From contig OY282377.1 in NCBI GenBank assembly GCA_958295785.1, positions 1,564,394 to 1,628,393 of the forward strand: 64,000 nucleotides of DNA, written 5' to 3'. The position numbers and the translations under genes are program-made. The DNA comes from an uncultured Latescibacterota bacterium (GTDB taxonomy: Bacteria; Latescibacterota; UBA2968). The notes below the pieces were generated by a model. It saw only the letters and a list, made by a program, of their open reading frames with translations, had not been told where the DNA came from and did not search any database. Of the stretch, positions 21,145 through 59,539 are shown piece by piece. Positions within the stretch are counted from its first letter, which is position 1. Every line of letters starts with the position of its first letter.

Positions 21145-21183
21145 AAATGCAACAGCAGTCATGCCAATTTGATTTTTATTTCC

Positions 21184-21545
21184 TTGTCTCAAGCGTTTGG
21201 TCCTACAGCATCGTTTGTTGCCTTCGATGCGTTGGCTACGCCTGTGCCTACGGCGTGCGGCGACCTACTTTTTTTCAACAGCAAAAAAGGAAGCAAAAAA
21301 TGCCGCTCTCATGCGCCGAGGGGCTGGCACAGCGCAAATCGCTTCGTTGCACATACCACATGCGTTGGCCTGCAAGGTGGGTTGCAAGATGGCTGTGGGT
21401 TGCGAGACGGCCTTGCGCGCTGTGCGTGATGGCATGGATCTGATGGTCTTTTGGGATGGCATTTTTGCAATGGCTTCTCTGAATGACGGCGTAACGTCAA
21501 GGGAATCATTTGCGGGTCGCATATCGCATCACGTCAGGTCAACGT
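21184..21545 (+). repeat. Dispersed 300-400 bp repeat, copy A
   Basis: Shares long stretches with copies at 31197-31604 and 59233-59533, all on the plus strand: GATGCGTTGGCTACGCCTGT, CAACAGCAAAAAA, GCCGCTCTCATGCGCCGAGG, TTGCGAGACGGCCTTGCGCG and GGTCTTTTGGGATGGCATTT. A frame reading DALATPVPTACG ... KCRSHAPRG ... LRDGLARCA ends at the same TGA (21427-21429) as in copy B. This fills the gap between the sterol desaturase and ABC transporter genes; no known gene family is recognised in it. Confidence 0.75.
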
Positions 21546-29751: not shown

Positions 29752-30844
29752 TAGGACTTACGCAATCACCATTGGAATATGAGGTGCTTTGAGTTGTTGT
29801 CTCAAGAAGTCAGCCACCCCCCGGTATTTGACTTGATAAATGGTTTGTCCTGTTTGATAGGCCACCTGCGCGAGTCTTATCCAAACTAACATCGCACACC
29901 CAATATGATTTCGTACCATGCGTGCCAACCGACATTGACACTTTTCAAGCCCGGTTACCTGTTTGACTTCGCGGTGAAATGGCTCAATTTTCCATCTTTG
30001 GTGACACACCTGTTGTACCCCTGAAGAATCGTTTTGAGCATGGTCGTTAGTCACGACATACGCCGTGCGTCTGGCAGCAGACGCCACCCGGAATAATTTC
30101 ACTTTGTGGTCTTTGGGGAACCCTCTGATTTTAATTGACTTGCCTTGTTTGCGTTGCGCTTTCGTCCAAGTTAAGCTATCTACGCGCTGGTAGGGGATTG
30201 TGCCTGCCTACTCGTCCACGCGCCGGTTCGTCTTGAGGGGACAATAATAGGTTTTTTGCATCTGCTCTATGTGTCGCATGACCGTTTTGGTCGCATACCC
30301 ACTGTCCATCAAGACCCCGGTAAAAGGAAGGCGCTTCTGATAGACCAACGCAGAGAGCATGTCCTTGAGAGGATCCCATTTGGTTTTGCCATCGCCTTGC
30401 GGGTCATAAATCCGATAGTCAATCAGCCAGAACCGATCCTGTTGCGGATTGACATAGACACATGTGACCACCCCAATGCCATTGATGACGCCTTGGGCGT
30501 TGCCGCTATATTGACGGCGCACTCACGCGATCTTGCGCGCGTGTCGCTTGTCTAAAACCGGGTCATCAAAGATCACATAGCCTTTGGGCGTCAACGCGAT
30601 GGGGGCTTTGACGTGTTCCCACACCAAGCGGGGGGGGATACGATCACCGGCGAGATAGCGGTTGATCATATCATGACTGAACCCTTCGCTATGGTCGGCG
30701 AAAGGGGTCAGGGTATCGTTGAGGGGACTGCTAAGCAGATACTGACAGTAATCCAAACGCGTCGGTTGGCGCATTGATACCTCCTCAAAGTGATAAATTT
30801 TACGGAATTGCACCCTTTTTTAACTCAGCATGCGTAAGTTCTAG
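29752..30844 (-). mobile_element. IS701-type insertion sequence
   Basis: A 1,093-bp element bounded by inverted repeats TAGGACTTACGCA and, on the other strand of the right end, TAGAACTTACGCA (one mismatch). It is flanked by the direct repeat GCAAA at 29747-29751 and 30845-30849. It lies in codon-exact position inside the same nucleotidyltransferase gene as the IS607-type element. Its single transposase gene fills most of it. Confidence 0.82.
29758..30774 (-). pseudogene. IS701 family transposase with two in-frame stops
   Basis: A 339-codon frame from ATG 30774 (MRQPTRLDYCQYLLSS), with GAGGAGG 8 bases upstream, to 29758. It is interrupted by TGA at 30523-30525 (before VRRQYSGNAQGVINGIGVVT) and TAG at 30208-30210 (before AGTIPYQRVDSLTW). 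All three pieces are in the same frame and match an IS701-type DDE transposase: YVIFDDPVLDK has the first acidic region, GVLMDSGYATK the second, and QRWKIEPFHREVKQVTG the E motif. So it is an old but barely decayed copy. Confidence 0.8.
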
Positions 30845-31125: not shown

Positions 31126-31196
31126 TGCTATTTCCATTGCTACCCCTACGACCGCGATGAATGAGGAACAGACGTTCCATAGAGATCATGCATTGC

Positions 31197-31604
31197 TTGT
31201 CTAAAGCGTTTGGTCCTAACTCCTCGTTGGTTGCCTCCGATGCGTTGGCTACGCCTGTGCCTACGGCGTGCGGCGTCAAACGCTCAAATTATTCGCGTTT
31301 TCATACTTTTTTTCAACAGCAAAAAAAAGTAGGCGAGCGGGGTACAACTGCCTTAGCAGTTCAAAAATGCCGCTCTCATGCGCCGAGGGGTGCTCTGCAC
31401 AGCGCAAATCGCTTTTGTAGTAGCACGACATGCGTTGGCCTGCAAGGTGGGTTGCAAGATGGATGTTGGTTGCGAGACGGCCTTGCGCGCTGTGCGTGAT
31501 GGCTTTATCGGAGGGTCTTTTGGGATAGCATTTTGCGATGGCTTATTTGACGTACTGCGTAACGGCATTTGCAGGGAGCATATCGCATCACATTAGGTCA
31601 ACAG
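31197..31604 (+). repeat. Dispersed 300-400 bp repeat, copy B
   Basis: Second copy of the element also at 21184 and 59233. It has an additional 60-70 bases in its centre. A perfect hairpin, TACTTTTTTT then 7 bases then AAAAAAAAGTA, lies at 31304-31331. The frame DALATPVPTACG ... KCRSHAPRGALHSANRF ... LRDGLARCA runs to a TGA at 31497-31499, as in copy A. The remaining part of the gap to 31781 is AT-rich and may hold the promoter of the giant gene. Confidence 0.75.
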
Positions 31605-31781
31605 AAAATCAATTTGGTATGGCATTTGGTCGGTCTATCCGAAAATCAACCGCGTGTCGCTGTATTGTGGCATTCGATTTTTTTGTTTTTTTATTTTCGG
31701 CAGGTTATATATTGCCTCTCGTCAAGACCGCCATCTGCTCGTGAGATGGCCCCCTGTATCCCCAACGCAAAGGAGATAGCT

Positions 31782-34700
31782 ATGCGTAAACGGATTGTGG
31801 CAATGGGCTTGTTGATGACCGCACTGACCGTGCTGGTCTTTTTGGGCTATCAGGCCGCTGCTGAGCCCGATGCCAATGCGGGCGCGACCCCTGGGGAATC
31901 TGCCCCGAGTTCTGACCTGCGTGCGAAAATTGCCGAGGCGCGCGATGCGGGGTTGCACGGCCTGCTCGCCGAGGGCGAGGCAGAAGCCTGGCGTTCGGAT
32001 GACGCGATACAGCGTGCAAAAGTTGCCGCAGGCCCCAATGCCAATGCGCGTCTGTCGCTGGATCTGATTCCCAATGGCGGGTCGGGCAATCAACGAAATG
32101 ATGCCGTGACCTCGGGCACCGTGTCTGGACAGGGCACCAAAATTGCCATTGAAGTTTTCGCAACCGGCGTGACCACCTCATTGACCGGCATGCGAATCCG
32201 CTTTGACTTTGATGCGTCTGTGCTGACCTATGTCAAAGCCGAGAACAGCGCATTTACCTTTCCAATTCGAGCTTCAACGGGCACTGACTTCGCGGCGCTT
32301 TCCCCGGTTACATTGCCATCATCAGGTTTTCTAACACGGGCAGAGTTCACCACAGTGACCGATGTCACGGGCAGGGAATTTTCCATTGGTATTGCGTCGG
32401 TAACGCTTTCTGAAAACGCGGGTTCAAGCGATGTGATCACCACGACAAACCGAATCGCGTTTAATGCGACGACTGCCCCGACGCCGGATTTTGATGGCAA
32501 TGGGGCGGTTGATTTTTTCGACTTTTTGGCGTTTGTAGGGCAGTATGACACCCGGCAAGGGGATGGCAGATACCAAGTTAAGTATGATTTGAATAGCGAT
32601 GGCGCGATAGACTTTCAGGATTTTCTGATTTTTGTCAGCAGTTATGACAGTTCGTCTCCCGACCTGATTGTTGAATTGCCTTCTGTCAGAGATAGTACCT
32701 TGACGCCTGGGCAAACCTTCACCCTAAGTGCCACCGTTCGCAACTCGGGCACGGGACAGTCGGCCGCGACGACCTTGCGCTATTACCGCTCGTCCGACGC
32801 GACGATTTCGACCGGCGATACGGCTGTTGGCACGGATAGTGTGAGCGAGCTTGCGGCTTCGGGCACCAGTGCCAAGTCCATTAGTCTGAAAACGCCATTG
32901 AGTTCTGGCACGTATTACTACGGCGCGTGCGTCGAAAGCGTCAGTGGCGAGAGCAATACGAACAACAACTGCTCGGATGGCGTGCGCGTCACGGTGAGCC
33001 GCAGCAACATCGGGGGCAGCAACAACCCAGACTTGATTGTTGAATCGCCTTCGGTCAGCGATAGTACCTTGACGCCTGGGCAAACCTTCACCCTAAGCGC
33101 CACCGTTCGCAACTCGGGCACGGGACAGTCGGCCGCGACGACCTTGCGCTATTACCGCTCAACCGACGCGACGATTTCGACCGGCGATACGGCTGTTGGC
33201 ACGGATGCGGTGAGCGGGCTTTCGGCTTCTAACACGAGTGCTGAGTCGATCAGCCTGAGAGCACCTTCGAGTGCGGGGACGTATTACTACGGCGCGTGCG
33301 TGGCAAGCGTCAGTAGCGAGAGCAATACCGATAACAACTGCTCGGCTGGCGTGCGCGTCACGGTGAGCAGTGGCAGCGGGGGCAGCAACAACCCGGACTT
33401 GATTGTTCAATCGCCTTCGGTCAGCGACAACACGCTGACGACAGGGCAGTCCCTTACTCTGAGCGCGACGGTTCGCAACCAAGGCACGGCCACGGCTGCG
33501 GCGACAACGTTGCGCTATTACCGCTCAACCGACGCGACGATTTCCAAAGACGACACGGCTGTTGGCACAGATGATGCGATCAGCGGGCTGGCGGCGTCTG
33601 GTACCAGTGCTCAGTCAAGTAGCGTAACCGCGCCGTCGAGTGCGGGGACGTATTACTACGGCGCGTGCGTGGATGCGGTAATCAACGAGACCGACACGAA
33701 CAACAACTGCTCGGCTGGCGTGCGCGTCACGGTGAGCAGTGGTGGTGTGGGCGGCATCTGTGGGCGAACCACACAGGTGCGCGCTGCTATTTTGGAACAA
33801 ATCGCAGGCGTTACCGATTGCGCGCAGGTCACGAAAACGCATCTGACCGGGCTAAGGGATACGCTGAATATCAGAGGAAAAGGGCTGACCGCGTTGCAGA
33901 CCGCTGATTTCAATGATTTATCCAACCTGCGCGTCTTGCGCTTGGGTAGCAACCGCCTGACCGCGTTGCCCGATGATATATTCCTTGGCCTGTCTAATTT
34001 GCAAGACCTCCAACTTGGAGGCAATCTCCTGAACAGTCTGAACGCGGATGTGTTTTCAAATTTGTCCAACTTGAGAAAGCTGGACTTGGGTGGCAATCGT
34101 TTGAACCGTCTGCCCAATGGCGTGTTCTCGAACCTGTCCAACTTGCAAGTGTGCTTTCTCCACCTTAATCAACTCAGCAGTCTGCCCGATAGCGTGTTCT
34201 CTGGCCTATCCCGTTTGGAAGGGCTGAATTTGGAAGCCAACCCAGGCGCGCCGTTTCCATTGACCCTGAGTTTGGAACGCACGGACAATGCAAATTTACT
34301 CGCGCCCAGCCCGGCAACGGTGCAACTCAAAGTCGATAAAGGCGCGCCGTTTGCCATGTCCATCAGCCTGTCTGTCACGGGCGGCAGCCTGTCGCAAAGC
34401 ACGGGGACAATCGCCGCGGGCAGCACCGAGAGCAGAGGCATCACCGTGAGGCAGAGCGGGGGCAACTTGGTTCGGGTGGGGGTGCGGTCCGTGTCTGAGG
34501 TGCCAGAGGATTACAAGGGCCTGCAAATCTCCCAACCGAACCGGATCGTTTCGCTCAGCCTGTTCGCAACGTCCTCTGATTTGGTTGTCGAATCGCCTTC
34601 GGTCAGCGATAGTACCTTGACGCCTGGGCAATCTTTCATCCTACGCGCCACCGTTCGCAACTCGGGCAACTCGGGCACGGGTTCGGTTGCCGCGACGACG

Positions 34701-37700
34701 TTGCGCTATTACCGCTCAACCGACGCGACGATTTCCAAAGACGATACGGAAGTGGGCACAGATGCGATCAGCGGGCTTTCGGCGTCGGCGACGAGTGCTC
34801 AGTCAAGTAGCGTAACCGCGCCTTTGACAGCGGGCACGTATTATTACGGCGCGTGCGTGGATGCGATAATCAACGAGACCGAGATAGGCAACAACTGCTC
34901 AACCGGGGTGCAGGTGACAGTGGGGACCCCGGACTTGGTGGTTGAATCGCCTTCGGTGGATAATACCACGCCGACGCCGAGTCAGTCCCTTACTCTAAGC
35001 GCGACGGTTCGCAATCAAGGCACGGCCACGGCGGCCGCGACGACGTTGCGCTATTACCGCTCGTCCGACGCGACGATTTCCAAAGACGACACGGCTGTTG
35101 GCACAGATGATGTGGGCGGGCTTTCGGCTTCTAACACGAGTGCTGAGTCGGTCAGTTTGACCGCGCCGTCGAGTTCTGGCACGTATTATTACGGCGCGTG
35201 TGTGGATGCGATAATCAACGAGACCGACACGAACAACAACTGCTCGGCTGGCGTGCGCGTCACGGTGAGCCGCAGTGGCAGCGGGGGCAGCAACAACCCG
35301 GACTTGATCGTTCAATCGCCTTCGGTGGATAATACCACGCCGACGACAGGGCAGTCCTTTACTCTAAGCGCGACGGTTCGCAACCAAGGCACGGCGGCGG
35401 CTACCGCGACGACGTTGCGCTATTACCGCTCGTCCGACGCGACGATTTCGACCAGCGATACGGCTGTTGGCACGGATGATGTGGGCGGGCTTTCGGCTTC
35501 TAACACGAGTGTTGAGTCGGTCAGTCTGACCGCGCCGTCGAGTGCGGGCACGTATTACTACGGCGCGTGTGTCGAAAGCGTCAGTGGCGAGACCAACACG
35601 AACAACAACTGCTCAACCTGGGTGCAGGTGACAGTGGGGGCCCCGGACTTGGTGGTTGAATCGCCTTCGGTGGATAATACCACGCCGACGCCGAGTCAGT
35701 CCCTTACTCTAAGCGCGACGGTTCGCAATCAAGGCACGGCGGCGGCTACCGCGACAACGTTGCGCTATTACCGCTCGTCCGACGCGACGATTTCGACCAG
35801 CGATACGGCTGTTGGCACGGATGATGTGGGCGGGCTTTCGGCTTCTAACACGAGTGTTGAGTCGGTCAGTTTGACCGCGCCGTCGAGTTCTGGCACGTAT
35901 TATTACGGCGCGTGTGTGGATGCGATAATCAACGAGAGCGACACGAATAACAACTGCTCAACCGGGGTGCAGGTGATAGTGGGGGCCCCGGACTTGGTGG
36001 TTCAATCGCCTTCGGTGGATAATACCGCGCCGACGACAGGGCAGTCCCTTACTCTAAGCGCGACGGTTCGCAACCAAGGCACGGCCACGGCTGCCGCGAC
36101 GACGTTGCGCTATTACCGCTCGTCCGACGCGACGATTTCGACCAGCGATACGGCTGTTGGCACGGATGATGTGGGCGGGCTTTCGGCTTCTAACACGAGT
36201 GCTGAGTCGGTCAGTTTGACCGCGCCGTCGAGTTCTGGCACGTATTATTACGGCGCGTGTGTCGAAAGCGTCAGCGGCGAGACCAACACGAACAACAACT
36301 GCTCCACCGGGGTACAGGTGAAGGTCGGGGCCCCGGACTTGGTGGTTGAATCGCCTTCGGTGGATAATACCACGCCGACGCCGAGTCAGTCCCTTACTCT
36401 AAGCGCGACGGTTCGCAACCAAGGCACGGGGGCGGCTTCGGCGACAACGTTGCGCTATTACCGCTCGTCCGACGCGACGATTTCCAAAGACGACACGGCT
36501 GTTGGCACAGATGATGCGATCAGCGGGCTTGCGGCGTCGGCGACGAGTGCCCAGTCAAGTAGCATAACCGCGCCTTTGACAGCGGGCACGTATTACTACG
36601 GCGCGTGTGTGGATGCGATAATCAACGAGAGCGACACGAACAACAACTGCTCAACCGGGGTGCAGGTGACAGTGGGGGCCCCGGACTTGGTGGTTGAATC
36701 GCCTTCGGTGGATAATACCGCGCCGACGCCGAGTCAGTCCTTTACTCTAAGCGCGACGGTTCGCAACCAAGGCACGGGGGCGGCTTCGGCGACAACGTTG
36801 CGCTATTACCGCTCGTCCGACGCGACGATTTCCAAAGACGACACGGCTGTTGGCACAGATGATGCGATCAGCGGGCTTTCGGCGTCGGCGACGAGTGCTC
36901 AGTCAAGTAGCGTAACCGCGCCTTTGACAGCGGGCACGTATTATTACGGCGCGTGTGTGGATGCGATAATCAACGAGAGCGACACGAACAACAACTGCTC
37001 GACCGGGGTGCAGGTGACAGTGGGGGCCCCGGACTTGGTGGTTGAATCGCCTTCGGTGGATAATACCGCGCCGACGACAGGGCAGTCCCTTACTCTAAGC
37101 GCGACGGTTCGCAATCAAGGTACGGCGGCGGCTGCCGCGACGACGTTGCGCTATTACCGCTCGTCCGACGCGACGATTTCCAAAGACGATACGGAAGTGG
37201 GCACAGATGATGCGATCAGCGGGCTTGCGGCGTCGGCGACGAGTGCTCAGTCAAGTAGCGTAACCGCGCCTTCAATAGCGGACACGTATTATTATGGCGC
37301 ATGTGTGGATGCGATAATCAACGAGAGCGACACGAACAACAACTGCTCAACCGGGGTACAGGTGACAGTGGGGGCCCCGGACTTGGTGGTTGAATCGCCT
37401 TCGGTGAATAATACCACGCCGACGACAGGGCAGTCCTTTACTCTAAGCGCGACGGTTCGCAATCAAGGTACGGCGGCGGCTACCGCGACGACGTTGCGCT
37501 ATTACCGCTCGTCCGACGCGACGATTTCCAAAGACGATACGGCTGTTGGCACGGATGATGTGGGCGGGCTTTCGGCTTCTAACACGAGTGTTGAGTCGGT
37601 CAGTTTGACCGCGCCGAGTGCGGGCACGTATTACTATGGCGCGTGCGTCGAAAGCGTCAGCGGCGAGACCAACACGAACAACAACTGCTCAACCGGGGTG

Positions 37701-39542
37701 CAGGTGACAGTGGGGGCCCCGGACTTGGTGGTTGAATCGCCTTCGGTGGATAATACCACGCCGACGCCGAGTCAGTCCCTTACTCTGAGCGCGACGGTTC
37801 GCAACCAAGGCACGGCGGCGGCTACCGCGACGACGTTGCGCTATTACCGCTCGTCCGACGCGACGATTTCGACCAGCGATACGGCTGTTGGCACGGATGA
37901 TGTGGGCGGGCTTTCGGCTTCTAACACGAGTGTTGAGTCGGTCAGTTTGACCGCGCCGTCGAGTTCTGGCACGTATTATTACGGCGCATGCGTCGAAAGC
38001 GTCAGCGGCGAGAGCGACACGAACAACAACTGCTCAACCGGCGTACAGGTGAAGGTGGGGAGGCCGGACTTGGTGGTTGAATCGCCTTCGGTGGATAATA
38101 CCACGCCGACGCCGAGTCAGTCCCTTACTCTAAGCGCGACGGTTCGCAACCAAGGCACGGGGGCGGCTTCGGCGACAACGTTGCGCTATTACCGCTCGTC
38201 CGACGCGACGATTTCGACCAGCGATACGGCTGTTGGCACGGATGATGTGGGCGGGCTTTCGGCTTCTAACACGAGTGTTGGGTCGGTCAGTTTGACCGCG
38301 CCGTCGAGTTCTGGCACGTATTACTACGGCGCGTGTGTCGAAAGCGTCAGCGGCGAGACCGACACGAACAACAACTGCTCAACCGGGGTACAGGTGAAGG
38401 TGGGGGCCCCGGACTTGGTGGTTGAATCGCCTTCGGTGGATAATACCACGCCGCCGACAGGGCAGTCCCTTACTCTGAGCGCGACGGTTCGCAACCAAGG
38501 CACGGCGGCGGCTGCCGCGACGACGTTGCGCTATTACCGCTCGTCCGACGCGACGATTTCGACCGGCGATACGGAAGTGGGCACGGCGGCGGCGATAAGC
38601 GGGCTTTCGGCTTCTGGCACGAGTGATGAGTCGGTCAGTTTGACCGCGCCGTCGAGTGCGGGCACGTATTACTACGGCGCGTGTGTCGAAAGCGTCAGTG
38701 GCGAGACCGACACGAGCAACAACTGCTCCAGTGCTGTAACCGTCACGGTTCTGCCGTATCCGAAGATGTACTGGACGGACTCTGGCACGAATAAGATTCA
38801 GCGTGCCAACCTCGATGGCTCCAATGTCGAAGACCTCATCACCACAGGATTGGCAAGTCCAATTGGCATCGCACTGGATGTGGGGCGCGGAAAGATGTAT
38901 TGGACGGACCAGGGCACGGATAAGATTCAGCGTGCCAACCTCGATGGCTCCAATGTCGAAGACCTCATCACCACAGGATTGTCGAGGCCAGAAGGCTTCG
39001 CGCTGGATGTGGTGGGCGGAAAGATGTACTGGACGGACAACTGGACGGATAAGATTCAGCGTGCCAACCTCGATGGGTCTAATGTCGAAGACCTCATCAC
39101 CACAGGATTGGGGCATCCAAAAGACATCGCGCTGGATGTGGTGGGCGGAAAGATGTACTGGACGGAATACTCTGTCACGGATAAGATTCAGCGTGCCAAC
39201 CTCGATGGCTCCAATGTCGAAGACCTCATCACCACAGGATTGTCGGTGATAAGAGGCATCGCGCTGGATGTGGTGGGCGGAAAGATGTACTGGGTGAACT
39301 ATGGCACGAAAAAGATTAAGCGTGCCAACCTCGATGGCTCCAATGTCGAAGACCTCATCACCACAGGATTGGCAAGTCCGTATGGCATCGCACTGGATGT
39401 GGTGGGCGGAAAGATGTACTGGACGGACTCGGGCTATGGCAAGGAAAATATTCGGCGTGCCAACCTCGATGGCTCTAATGTCGAAGACCTCATCACCACA
39501 GGATTGGAGGATCCAATTGGCATCGCGCTGGATACGCGGTAG
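31782..39542 (+). CDS. Giant secreted CARDB/LRR/YWTD repeat protein
   Basis: A 2,586-residue exported protein, presumably a cell-surface or matrix component. The start has AAAGGAGATAGCT before it and a signal peptide (MRKRIVAMGLLMTALTVLV then FLGYQAAAEP). A cohesin-like domain (about 85-230) precedes two dockerin-like Ca loops (about 233-290; DFDGNGAVDFFDFLAF and DLNSDGAIDFQDFLIF). Then come three CARDB-type repeats, a leucine-rich block (about 655-825), twelve more CARDB units each opening PDLVVESPSV, and six YWTD propeller repeats (KMYWTDSGTNKIQRANLDGS type) from about 2327 to the end. The CARDB units are 342-348 bp and nearly identical in DNA, a sign of recent tandem expansion. Ligand and function are unknown. 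Confidence 0.9.
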   Translation: MRKRIVAMGLLMTALTVLVFLGYQAAAEPDANAGATPGESAPSSDLRAKIAEARDAGLHGLLAEGEAEAWRSDDAIQRAKVAAGPNANARLSLDLIPNGGSGNQRNDAVTSGTVSGQGTKIAIEVFATGVTTSLTGMRIRFDFDASVLTYVKAENSAFTFPIRASTGTDFAALSPVTLPSSGFLTRAEFTTVTDVTGREFSIGIASVTLSENAGSSDVITTTNRIAFNATTAPTPDFDGNGAVDFFDFLAFVGQYDTRQGDGRYQVKYDLNSDGAIDFQDFLIFVSSYDSSSPDLIVELPSVRDSTLTPGQTFTLSATVRNSGTGQSAATTLRYYRSSDATISTGDTAVGTDSVSELAASGTSAKSISLKTPLSSGTYYYGACVESVSGESNTNNNCSDGVRVTVSRSNIGGSNNPDLIVESPSVSDSTLTPGQTFTLSATVRNSGTGQSAATTLRYYRSTDATISTGDTAVGTDAVSGLSASNTSAESISLRAPSSAGTYYYGACVASVSSESNTDNNCSAGVRVTVSSGSGGSNNPDLIVQSPSVSDNTLTTGQSLTLSATVRNQGTATAAATTLRYYRSTDATISKDDTAVGTDDAISGLAASGTSAQSSSVTAPSSAGTYYYGACVDAVINETDTNNNCSAGVRVTVSSGGVGGICGRTTQVRAAILEQIAGVTDCAQVTKTHLTGLRDTLNIRGKGLTALQTADFNDLSNLRVLRLGSNRLTALPDDIFLGLSNLQDLQLGGNLLNSLNADVFSNLSNLRKLDLGGNRLNRLPNGVFSNLSNLQVCFLHLNQLSSLPDSVFSGLSRLEGLNLEANPGAPFPLTLSLERTDNANLLAPSPATVQLKVDKGAPFAMSISLSVTGGSLSQSTGTIAAGSTESRGITVRQSGGNLVRVGVRSVSEVPEDYKGLQISQPNRIVSLSLFATSSDLVVESPSVSDSTLTPGQSFILRATVRNSGNSGTGSVAATTLRYYRSTDATISKDDTEVGTDAISGLSASATSAQSSSVTAPLTAGTYYYGACVDAIINETEIGNNCSTGVQVTVGTPDLVVESPSVDNTTPTPSQSLTLSATVRNQGTATAAATTLRYYRSSDATISKDDTAVGTDDVGGLSASNTSAESVSLTAPSSSGTYYYGACVDAIINETDTNNNCSAGVRVTVSRSGSGGSNNPDLIVQSPSVDNTTPTTGQSFTLSATVRNQGTAAATATTLRYYRSSDATISTSDTAVGTDDVGGLSASNTSVESVSLTAPSSAGTYYYGACVESVSGETNTNNNCSTWVQVTVGAPDLVVESPSVDNTTPTPSQSLTLSATVRNQGTAAATATTLRYYRSSDATISTSDTAVGTDDVGGLSASNTSVESVSLTAPSSSGTYYYGACVDAIINESDTNNNCSTGVQVIVGAPDLVVQSPSVDNTAPTTGQSLTLSATVRNQGTATAAATTLRYYRSSDATISTSDTAVGTDDVGGLSASNTSAESVSLTAPSSSGTYYYGACVESVSGETNTNNNCSTGVQVKVGAPDLVVESPSVDNTTPTPSQSLTLSATVRNQGTGAASATTLRYYRSSDATISKDDTAVGTDDAISGLAASATSAQSSSITAPLTAGTYYYGACVDAIINESDTNNNCSTGVQVTVGAPDLVVESPSVDNTAPTPSQSFTLSATVRNQGTGAASATTLRYYRSSDATISKDDTAVGTDDAISGLSASATSAQSSSVTAPLTAGTYYYGACVDAIINESDTNNNCSTGVQVTVGAPDLVVESPSVDNTAPTTGQSLTLSATVRNQGTAAAAATTLRYYRSSDATISKDDTEVGTDDAISGLAASATSAQSSSVTAPSIADTYYYGACVDAIINESDTNNNCSTGVQVTVGAPDLVVESPSVNNTTPTTGQSFTLSATVRNQGTAAATATTLRYYRSSDATISKDDTAVGTDDVGGLSASNTSVESVSLTAPSAGTYYYGACVESVSGETNTNNNCSTGVQVTVGAPDLVVESPSVDNTTPTPSQSLTLSATVRNQGTAAATATTLRYYRSSDATISTSDTAVGTDDVGGLSASNTSVESVSLTAPSSSGTYYYGACVESVSGESDTNNNCSTGVQVKVGRPDLVVESPSVDNTTPTPSQSLTLSATVRNQGTGAASATTLRYYRSSDATISTSDTAVGTDDVGGLSASNTSVGSVSLTAPSSSGTYYYGACVESVSGETDTNNNCSTGVQVKVGAPDLVVESPSVDNTTPPTGQSLTLSATVRNQGTAAAAATTLRYYRSSDATISTGDTEVGTAAAISGLSASGTSDESVSLTAPSSAGTYYYGACVESVSGETDTSNNCSSAVTVTVLPYPKMYWTDSGTNKIQRANLDGSNVEDLITTGLASPIGIALDVGRGKMYWTDQGTDKIQRANLDGSNVEDLITTGLSRPEGFALDVVGGKMYWTDNWTDKIQRANLDGSNVEDLITTGLGHPKDIALDVVGGKMYWTEYSVTDKIQRANLDGSNVEDLITTGLSVIRGIALDVVGGKMYWVNYGTKKIKRANLDGSNVEDLITTGLASPYGIALDVVGGKMYWTDSGYGKENIRRANLDGSNVEDLITTGLEDPIGIALDTR

Positions 39543-59232: not shown

Positions 59233-59533
59233 GTCGCTGTTGGTTGCCTTTGATGCGTTGGCTACGCCTGTGCCTACGGCGTGCGGCGACTTCCTTTTTT
59301 TCAGCAGCAAAAAAAAGGAAGCAAAAAATGCCGCTCTCAGGCGCCGAGGGGTGCTCTGCACAGCGCAAATCGCTTTTGTAATAGGACGACATGCGTTGGC
59401 CTGCGAAGAGAGTTAAAAAATAAAGGTTGGTTGCGAGACGGCCTTGTGCGCTGTGCGTGATGGTTTTGTCTGATGGTCTTTTGGGATGGCATTTTGCCAT
59501 GGCTTCTCTGAATGACTGCGGAACGTCAGCGCA
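59233..59533 (+). repeat. Dispersed 300-400 bp repeat, copy C
   Basis: Third copy of the element at 21184 and 31197, on the same strand although the neighbouring genes here run on the minus strand. The hairpin is CTTCCTTTTTTT / AAAAAAAAGGAAG (59290-59321), with different but matching outer bases from copy B. The frame KCRSQAPRGALHSANRF ... LRDGLVRCA ends in TGA as in the other copies, but the start half is shifted relative to it. It fills the gap between the glycosyltransferase and TMTC-like genes. Confidence 0.75.
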
Positions 59534-59539
59534 ATCCGT

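Follow-up and report, generated by a model that had tools for sequence, protein, structure and literature searches.

MITEs carry terminal inverted repeats and a short target duplication, have no coding capacity and can number in the hundreds between the genes of a single species; their interiors usually drift and are normally not conserved across families. The dispersed intergenic palindromes of the REP/REPIN type, found with RAYT, are likewise kept paired, and HEARO and the omega RNAs of IscB and TnpB are multi-copy structured elements that sometimes stand alone. The element described here came to light as three related segments (copies A, B and C) in a 64,000-nucleotide stretch, hereafter the window, of an uncultured Latescibacterota genome. 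It shares the ends, duplication, lack of coding capacity and copy number of MITEs but, unlike their usual interiors, its core is conserved over three bacterial families. Compared with REP/REPIN it is much larger, and the genome with most copies is without a Y1 transposase. It is multi-copy and structured, as are HEARO and the IscB and TnpB omega RNAs, but no Rfam covariance model matched the element or its core, in agreement with the preliminary description, which had recognised no family. No protein family recurred beside the cores in a survey of their neighbours, and the literature searched contained no description of either element or core.

Comparison within the window showed that A, B and C are mutually homologous, each lying in an intergenic gap on the plus strand. 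That they form a genuine shared repeat was borne out by the genome search, which gave 40 scored matches from 307 first-look candidates, with E values down to 1e-188, and by a 37-mer of the element found at 147 places with up to 3 mismatches, against none for a reversed control pattern. A consensus built from about 50 genomic copies put the intact element at ~470 bp, to which the copies are 78–93% identical (median 88%). In 38 evenly spaced 20-kb stretches, 23 copies reached a length of 200 bp or more, which scales to ~170 for the genome; merging the listed matches of four genome searches gave 176 distinct places. The 5.66-Mb genome has about 170–200 substantial copies. Intact copies start with a terminal inverted repeat of ~24 bp, TACCAAWTTGATTTTNNNTTGTCC, and end with its reverse complement. 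They are flanked by exact 3-bp target duplications, TTA/TTA or TAA/TAA, in 21 copies and by TAA/TTA in 4, in a listing that counts both strands; no duplication of 4 bp or more was seen. With these inverted repeats, a duplication of fixed length, no transposase, a length below ~600 bp and many dispersed copies, 95 of the 96 own copies examined lying outside genes, A, B and C are degraded copies of a ~470-bp non-autonomous MITE, one of the readings first proposed. The plus-strand placing noted for the three copies does not extend to the genome, where 108 copies are on the plus strand and 68 on the minus strand. The positions of the copies and their parts are collected below.

Positions in the window of the three copies and of their palindromic parts
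Feature	Position	Strand	Remarks
Copy A	21162–21543	+	consensus 89–453 = window 21180–21543; decayed left inverted repeat 21162–21177, followed by an internal deletion of ~70 bp; right inverted repeat gone
H1 palindrome, copy A	21264–21293	+	CCTAC-T7 / A6-GGAAG; outer pairs broken
H2 GC-rich hairpin, copy A	21302–21324	+	loop TCATGCGCC; A-run 21295–21300 immediately 5'
P3 long-range palindrome, copy A	21327–21425	+	GCACAGCGC 21327–21335 with GCGCTGTGC 21417–21425
Copy B	31156–31619	+	consensus 52–470 = window 31156–31619; no left inverted repeat; right one retained (GAAAATCAATTTGGTA 31604–31619); two inserts
Short palindromic insert, copy B	31333–31366	+	GCGAGCGGGGTACAACTGCCTTAGCAGTTCAA; its 17-mer at 108 genome places (up to 1 mismatch)
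P3 palindrome, copy B	31397–31495	+	GCACAGCGC 31397–31405 / GCGCTGTGC 31487–31495
Copy C	59239–59536	+	consensus 122–417 = window 59239–59536; core and inner flanks only; neither end kept
P3 palindrome, copy C	59358–59456	+	GCACAGCGC 59358–59366 / GCGCTGTGC 59448–59456

Two further features of the window were noted. The listed TTG start of a 2657-residue reading frame (31569–39542, plus strand) falls inside copy B; its true start is likely an ATG near 31782, after AAGGAG and outside the element. A PF01609 transposase match at 29884–30324 on the minus strand (254 residues, one internal TAG) apparently belongs to the same group as an abundant IS, one copy of which, with a transposase of 353 residues, is inserted in the MITE copy L079. 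The short palindrome AGCGGGGTACAACTGCC..CAGTTC is an insert in a subset of MITE copies, and a similar insert occupies another core position in a further genome (L075 in G008); it may be a mobile mini-palindrome in its own right.

The end pattern matched 225 times in this genome against once, with 2 mismatches and chance-like, in 22 relatives, so that the MITE burst belongs to this species. Duplications of 3 bp at TWA are compatible both with PIF/Harbinger transposons, which use TWA targets, and with the IS1031 group of the IS5 family, whose targets are TNA. Many other ISs populate the genome, which has about 150 PF01609 matches. Transposase searches with PF01609 and PF13586 found no autonomous element with TACCAAWTTGATTTTNNNTTGTCC-type ends among the fetched IS5-type loci or in the ~1.2 Mb read. 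Three candidate partners were rejected: the IS5-type elements of this genome, whose ends (AGAAGCCCTAACA) are unlike those of the MITE and some of which sit inside MITE ends; a 2-kb inverted-repeat pair at C1:4051240–4053239, a fragment adjoining a MITE; and the IS of the interrupted copy L079, whose transposase is likely IS701-like. Plasmid and viral collections yielded no matches.

The distribution of the middle of the element is different from that of its ends. A DNA search of 60 relatives matched the ten congeners and one further genus over this middle only, in copies without the inverted repeats of the present MITE; the core of ~175 bp is thus not restricted to this species. With a covariance model, cores were detected in 21 of the 64 genomes of the phylum, covering 8 genera and the families f1, f2 and f3, at 1–3 up to more than 40 per genome, and in none of 25 genomes of family f4. 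Read by eye, the cores of congeners are housed in other inverted repeats, GGGTGTGCATAA../..TTATGCACACCC and TGAYGTTACGCA../..TGCGTAACRTCA, and a remnant of the latter housing, CTGCGTAACGTCA, is still present in the current MITE; no inverted repeats were seen around the cores of G014, in another genus, or of family f2. The core is therefore far older than the MITE and outlives the transposon ends that surround it. Similar A/T hairpins with a AAAGTAAGCAAA motif may occur in Proteobacteria and Bacteroidetes, but this lead is unproven, because an exact-pattern scan of 84,980 species matched nothing beyond Latescibacterota contigs and a single contig labelled Gemmatimonadota, which is identical with G010:C7 of the present analysis.

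Core-bearing elements have also been gained or lost within the genus, which lends the MITE reading further support. One orthologous site (site 4) is filled in 2 species and empty in 5; another (site 5) is occupied in a single species and empty in 2; at a third (site 1), gap lengths suggest empty sites in several congeners. The empty sites are not exact at base level: at site 5, ~29 bp were lost as well and no exact target duplication was read.

From its 5' end, the core comprises TGCC-WWCG-GGCG, the T-run/A-run palindrome H1, a linker of 4–7 As, the GC-rich hairpin H2, whose loop is often TCAARYGCC, and P3, whose two arms are separated by ~80 bp and enclose the partly conserved motifs AAATACC, GGCCTNC and GACGGAAT. 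The types of the 5' and 3' arms of H1 match as subfamilies in 30 of 53 own copies. The genus has P3 arms of the form GCACAGCGC/GCGCTGTGC; most copies of G014 have GATTTTCCGCA/TGCGGAAAATC instead, GCATGGCGC/GCGCCCTGC predominates in f2, and L202 has GCTTTTCCGCG/CGCGGAAAAGC. Three G014 copies (L177, L181 and L185) have GCACAGCGC-type arms around a G014-type interior, a mixed makeup which indicates that both arms changed jointly and not through a swap of the whole segment. Several variants were noted besides. An alternative H1 region, AAACGCTCAAATTAYTCGYGTYTTCATAC, is common to copy B (31274–31306) and L185, a copy from another genus; a second G014 subfamily (L169, L171, L172 and L186) joins the head, from H1 to H2, to a different conserved tail of CCAACTGCACAACGGCC type; the sequence upstream of the core (L189–L201) is a pyrimidine tract poor in G, with T abundant in f1 and C in f2; and in L128 the core ends just past H2 and is fused to coding sequence at GGGCTGGC, probably by a deletion between short repeats.

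A central hairpin whose outer bases change together had been described in the window. This is correct for copies B (TACT/AGTA) and C (CTTCC/GGAAG) but not for copy A, where the outer pairing of CCTAC with GGAAG is broken. Across 51 divergent cores, 97.9% of cells were paired, double changes were present in 22 of 28 pairs and the covariation score was 0.429, figures that lean towards the structure since this alignment was fitted to the model. Shuffled controls gave 80.1%, 12.1 pairs with double changes and 0.139, and controls slid by 1–3 columns gave 48–56% and 0.035–0.104; in an unfitted alignment of 25 sequences, double changes were already present in 12 of 28 pairs. Paired arms thus change jointly, and H1 and the long-range P3 have undergone complete sequence turnover with pairing retained. 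If selection acted on an RNA, G-U would be expected to be much better tolerated than C-A on the strand that is transcribed. As H1 and P3 together contained 2 G-U and 8 C-A cells, the near-absence of G-U points to DNA-level palindromes, arm-to-arm repair or an RNA from the minus strand. Folding energies of the 51 cores did not differ between the strands (mean z −0.66 and −0.65; Wilcoxon p 0.90), and a strand preference hinted at by six examples disappeared in this larger set. Almost pure Watson-Crick pairing and strand-neutral folding make a DNA-level palindrome as likely as an RNA. Of the structured RNA first suggested, the structure is strongly upheld by covariation across three families, whereas its being RNA rather than DNA is not, neither strand being clearly favoured by the type of pairing or by the folding energies.

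Taken together, these data are probably best explained by a non-autonomous MITE, ~470 bp long, whose cargo is an old core rich in palindromes. A DDE transposase acting in trans would have cut and pasted the copies through their TACCAAWTTGATTTT ends into TWA targets, and would since have been lost or have escaped our searches. The core would be a mobile module of its own, older than the MITE, which at least three inverted-repeat housings have captured in the genus, and the pairing of H1, H2 and P3 would be maintained as a palindrome through selection or repair. The most likely reason would be that the core is encountered as a single-strand hairpin, either by the replication machinery or by a protein of the host or the transposon. 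Purely passive cargo does not explain why the core is retained, since it outlives its housings. The MITE itself is ordinary; its conserved, re-housed palindromic core is the new part. A broader proposal, which we regard as tentative, is that the core belongs to a type of mobile, structured nucleic acid not described before, so far seen only in one Latescibacterota lineage, self-spreading in some genera and repeatedly captured by unrelated ends because its palindromes help the carrier as terminator, hairpin substrate or small RNA. As to its role, we place most weight on a palindrome recognised as DNA or on a terminator or insulator, and less on a small RNA.

An insulator would be a palindromic terminator that blocks read-through and makes insertion cheap for the host, so that carrier MITEs persist. 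The nearly always intergenic position of the copies, the conserved GC hairpin adjoining an A/U run and the retention of the core in several different housings all fit this role; however, orientations that would end a gene are not in excess, the four gene contexts being occupied about equally in relatives (18, 16, 14 and 12) and by 33, 20, 14 and 13 of the own copies, and we consider this rival reading rather unlikely. With all four contexts occupied, the fixed position and strand relative to genes of a cis-regulatory RNA were not found either, nor was a recurrent neighbour protein, once orthologous sites, common gene families and frames of the element itself were set aside.

Somewhat more doubtful is a mobile small RNA gene read right-to-left from the minus strand, with P3 as closing stem and H2 plus the U-run encoded by the A-linker as terminator. 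On that strand most subfamilies do have a GC-rich hairpin followed by U4–U7, the closing stem is kept by compensation and the internal motifs AAATACC, GGCCTNC and GACGGAAT stay similar. In copies A and C, however, nothing resembles a promoter and no terminator stands out from shuffled sequence (in a scan of loops of 3–8, the H2 loop being 9), wobble pairs show no clear strand preference, and the absence of a folding preference in the 51 cores and of an Rfam match counts against it as well.

The orientation of the copies bears on a further, improbable alternative, a single-strand DNA hairpin that a dedicated HUH (Y1) transposase would mobilise on the lagging-strand template in the manner of REP/RAYT or IS200/IS605. 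Outside 3.36–4.66 Mb, 99 of 139 copies are on the plus strand, against 9 of 37 within that segment (Fisher p 3e-7); none of 200 permutations reached the best segmentation. One switch lies at dnaA (4.696 Mb) and GC skew changes sign across the same segment, which places 127 of 176 copies (72%) along the leading strand. That orientation follows replication is suggestive only, as the skew is weak and the second switch would require either replichores of very different length or a rearrangement. This bias, the almost solely Watson-Crick pairing and the lack of visible inverted repeats in G014 and f2 would suit a Y1 enzyme, but Y1_Tnp is absent from this genome, which has most copies, and from the core-bearing G008, G013, G015, G017 and G018, and is frequent in genomes without cores.

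The small peptide gene proposed at the outset, ending in LRDGLARCA and expressed from each copy, can be set aside with little hesitation: although the frame is open for 40–113 residues in most copies, substitution rates at the three codon positions are equal (0.082, 0.074 and 0.081 in 70 copies), frameshifts occur among copies and some frames are shortened to 15–50 residues. The common TGA does exist (21427–21429, 31497–31499 and 59458–59460) and directly abuts the P3 arm GCGCTGTGC in A, B and C; as it adjoins a conserved structural arm, a common stop is expected, and the shared frame is a by-product of the structure.

Nearly all that is known of the phylum in which the MITE and its core occur comes from metagenomes. 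The near-absence of G-U pairs and the replication-linked orientation are relevant to the question of whether covariation among repeats is necessarily a sign of RNA, and a core whose pairing is kept across genera despite the turnover of its arms offers a clean test of what use a non-coding cargo is to a mobile element.
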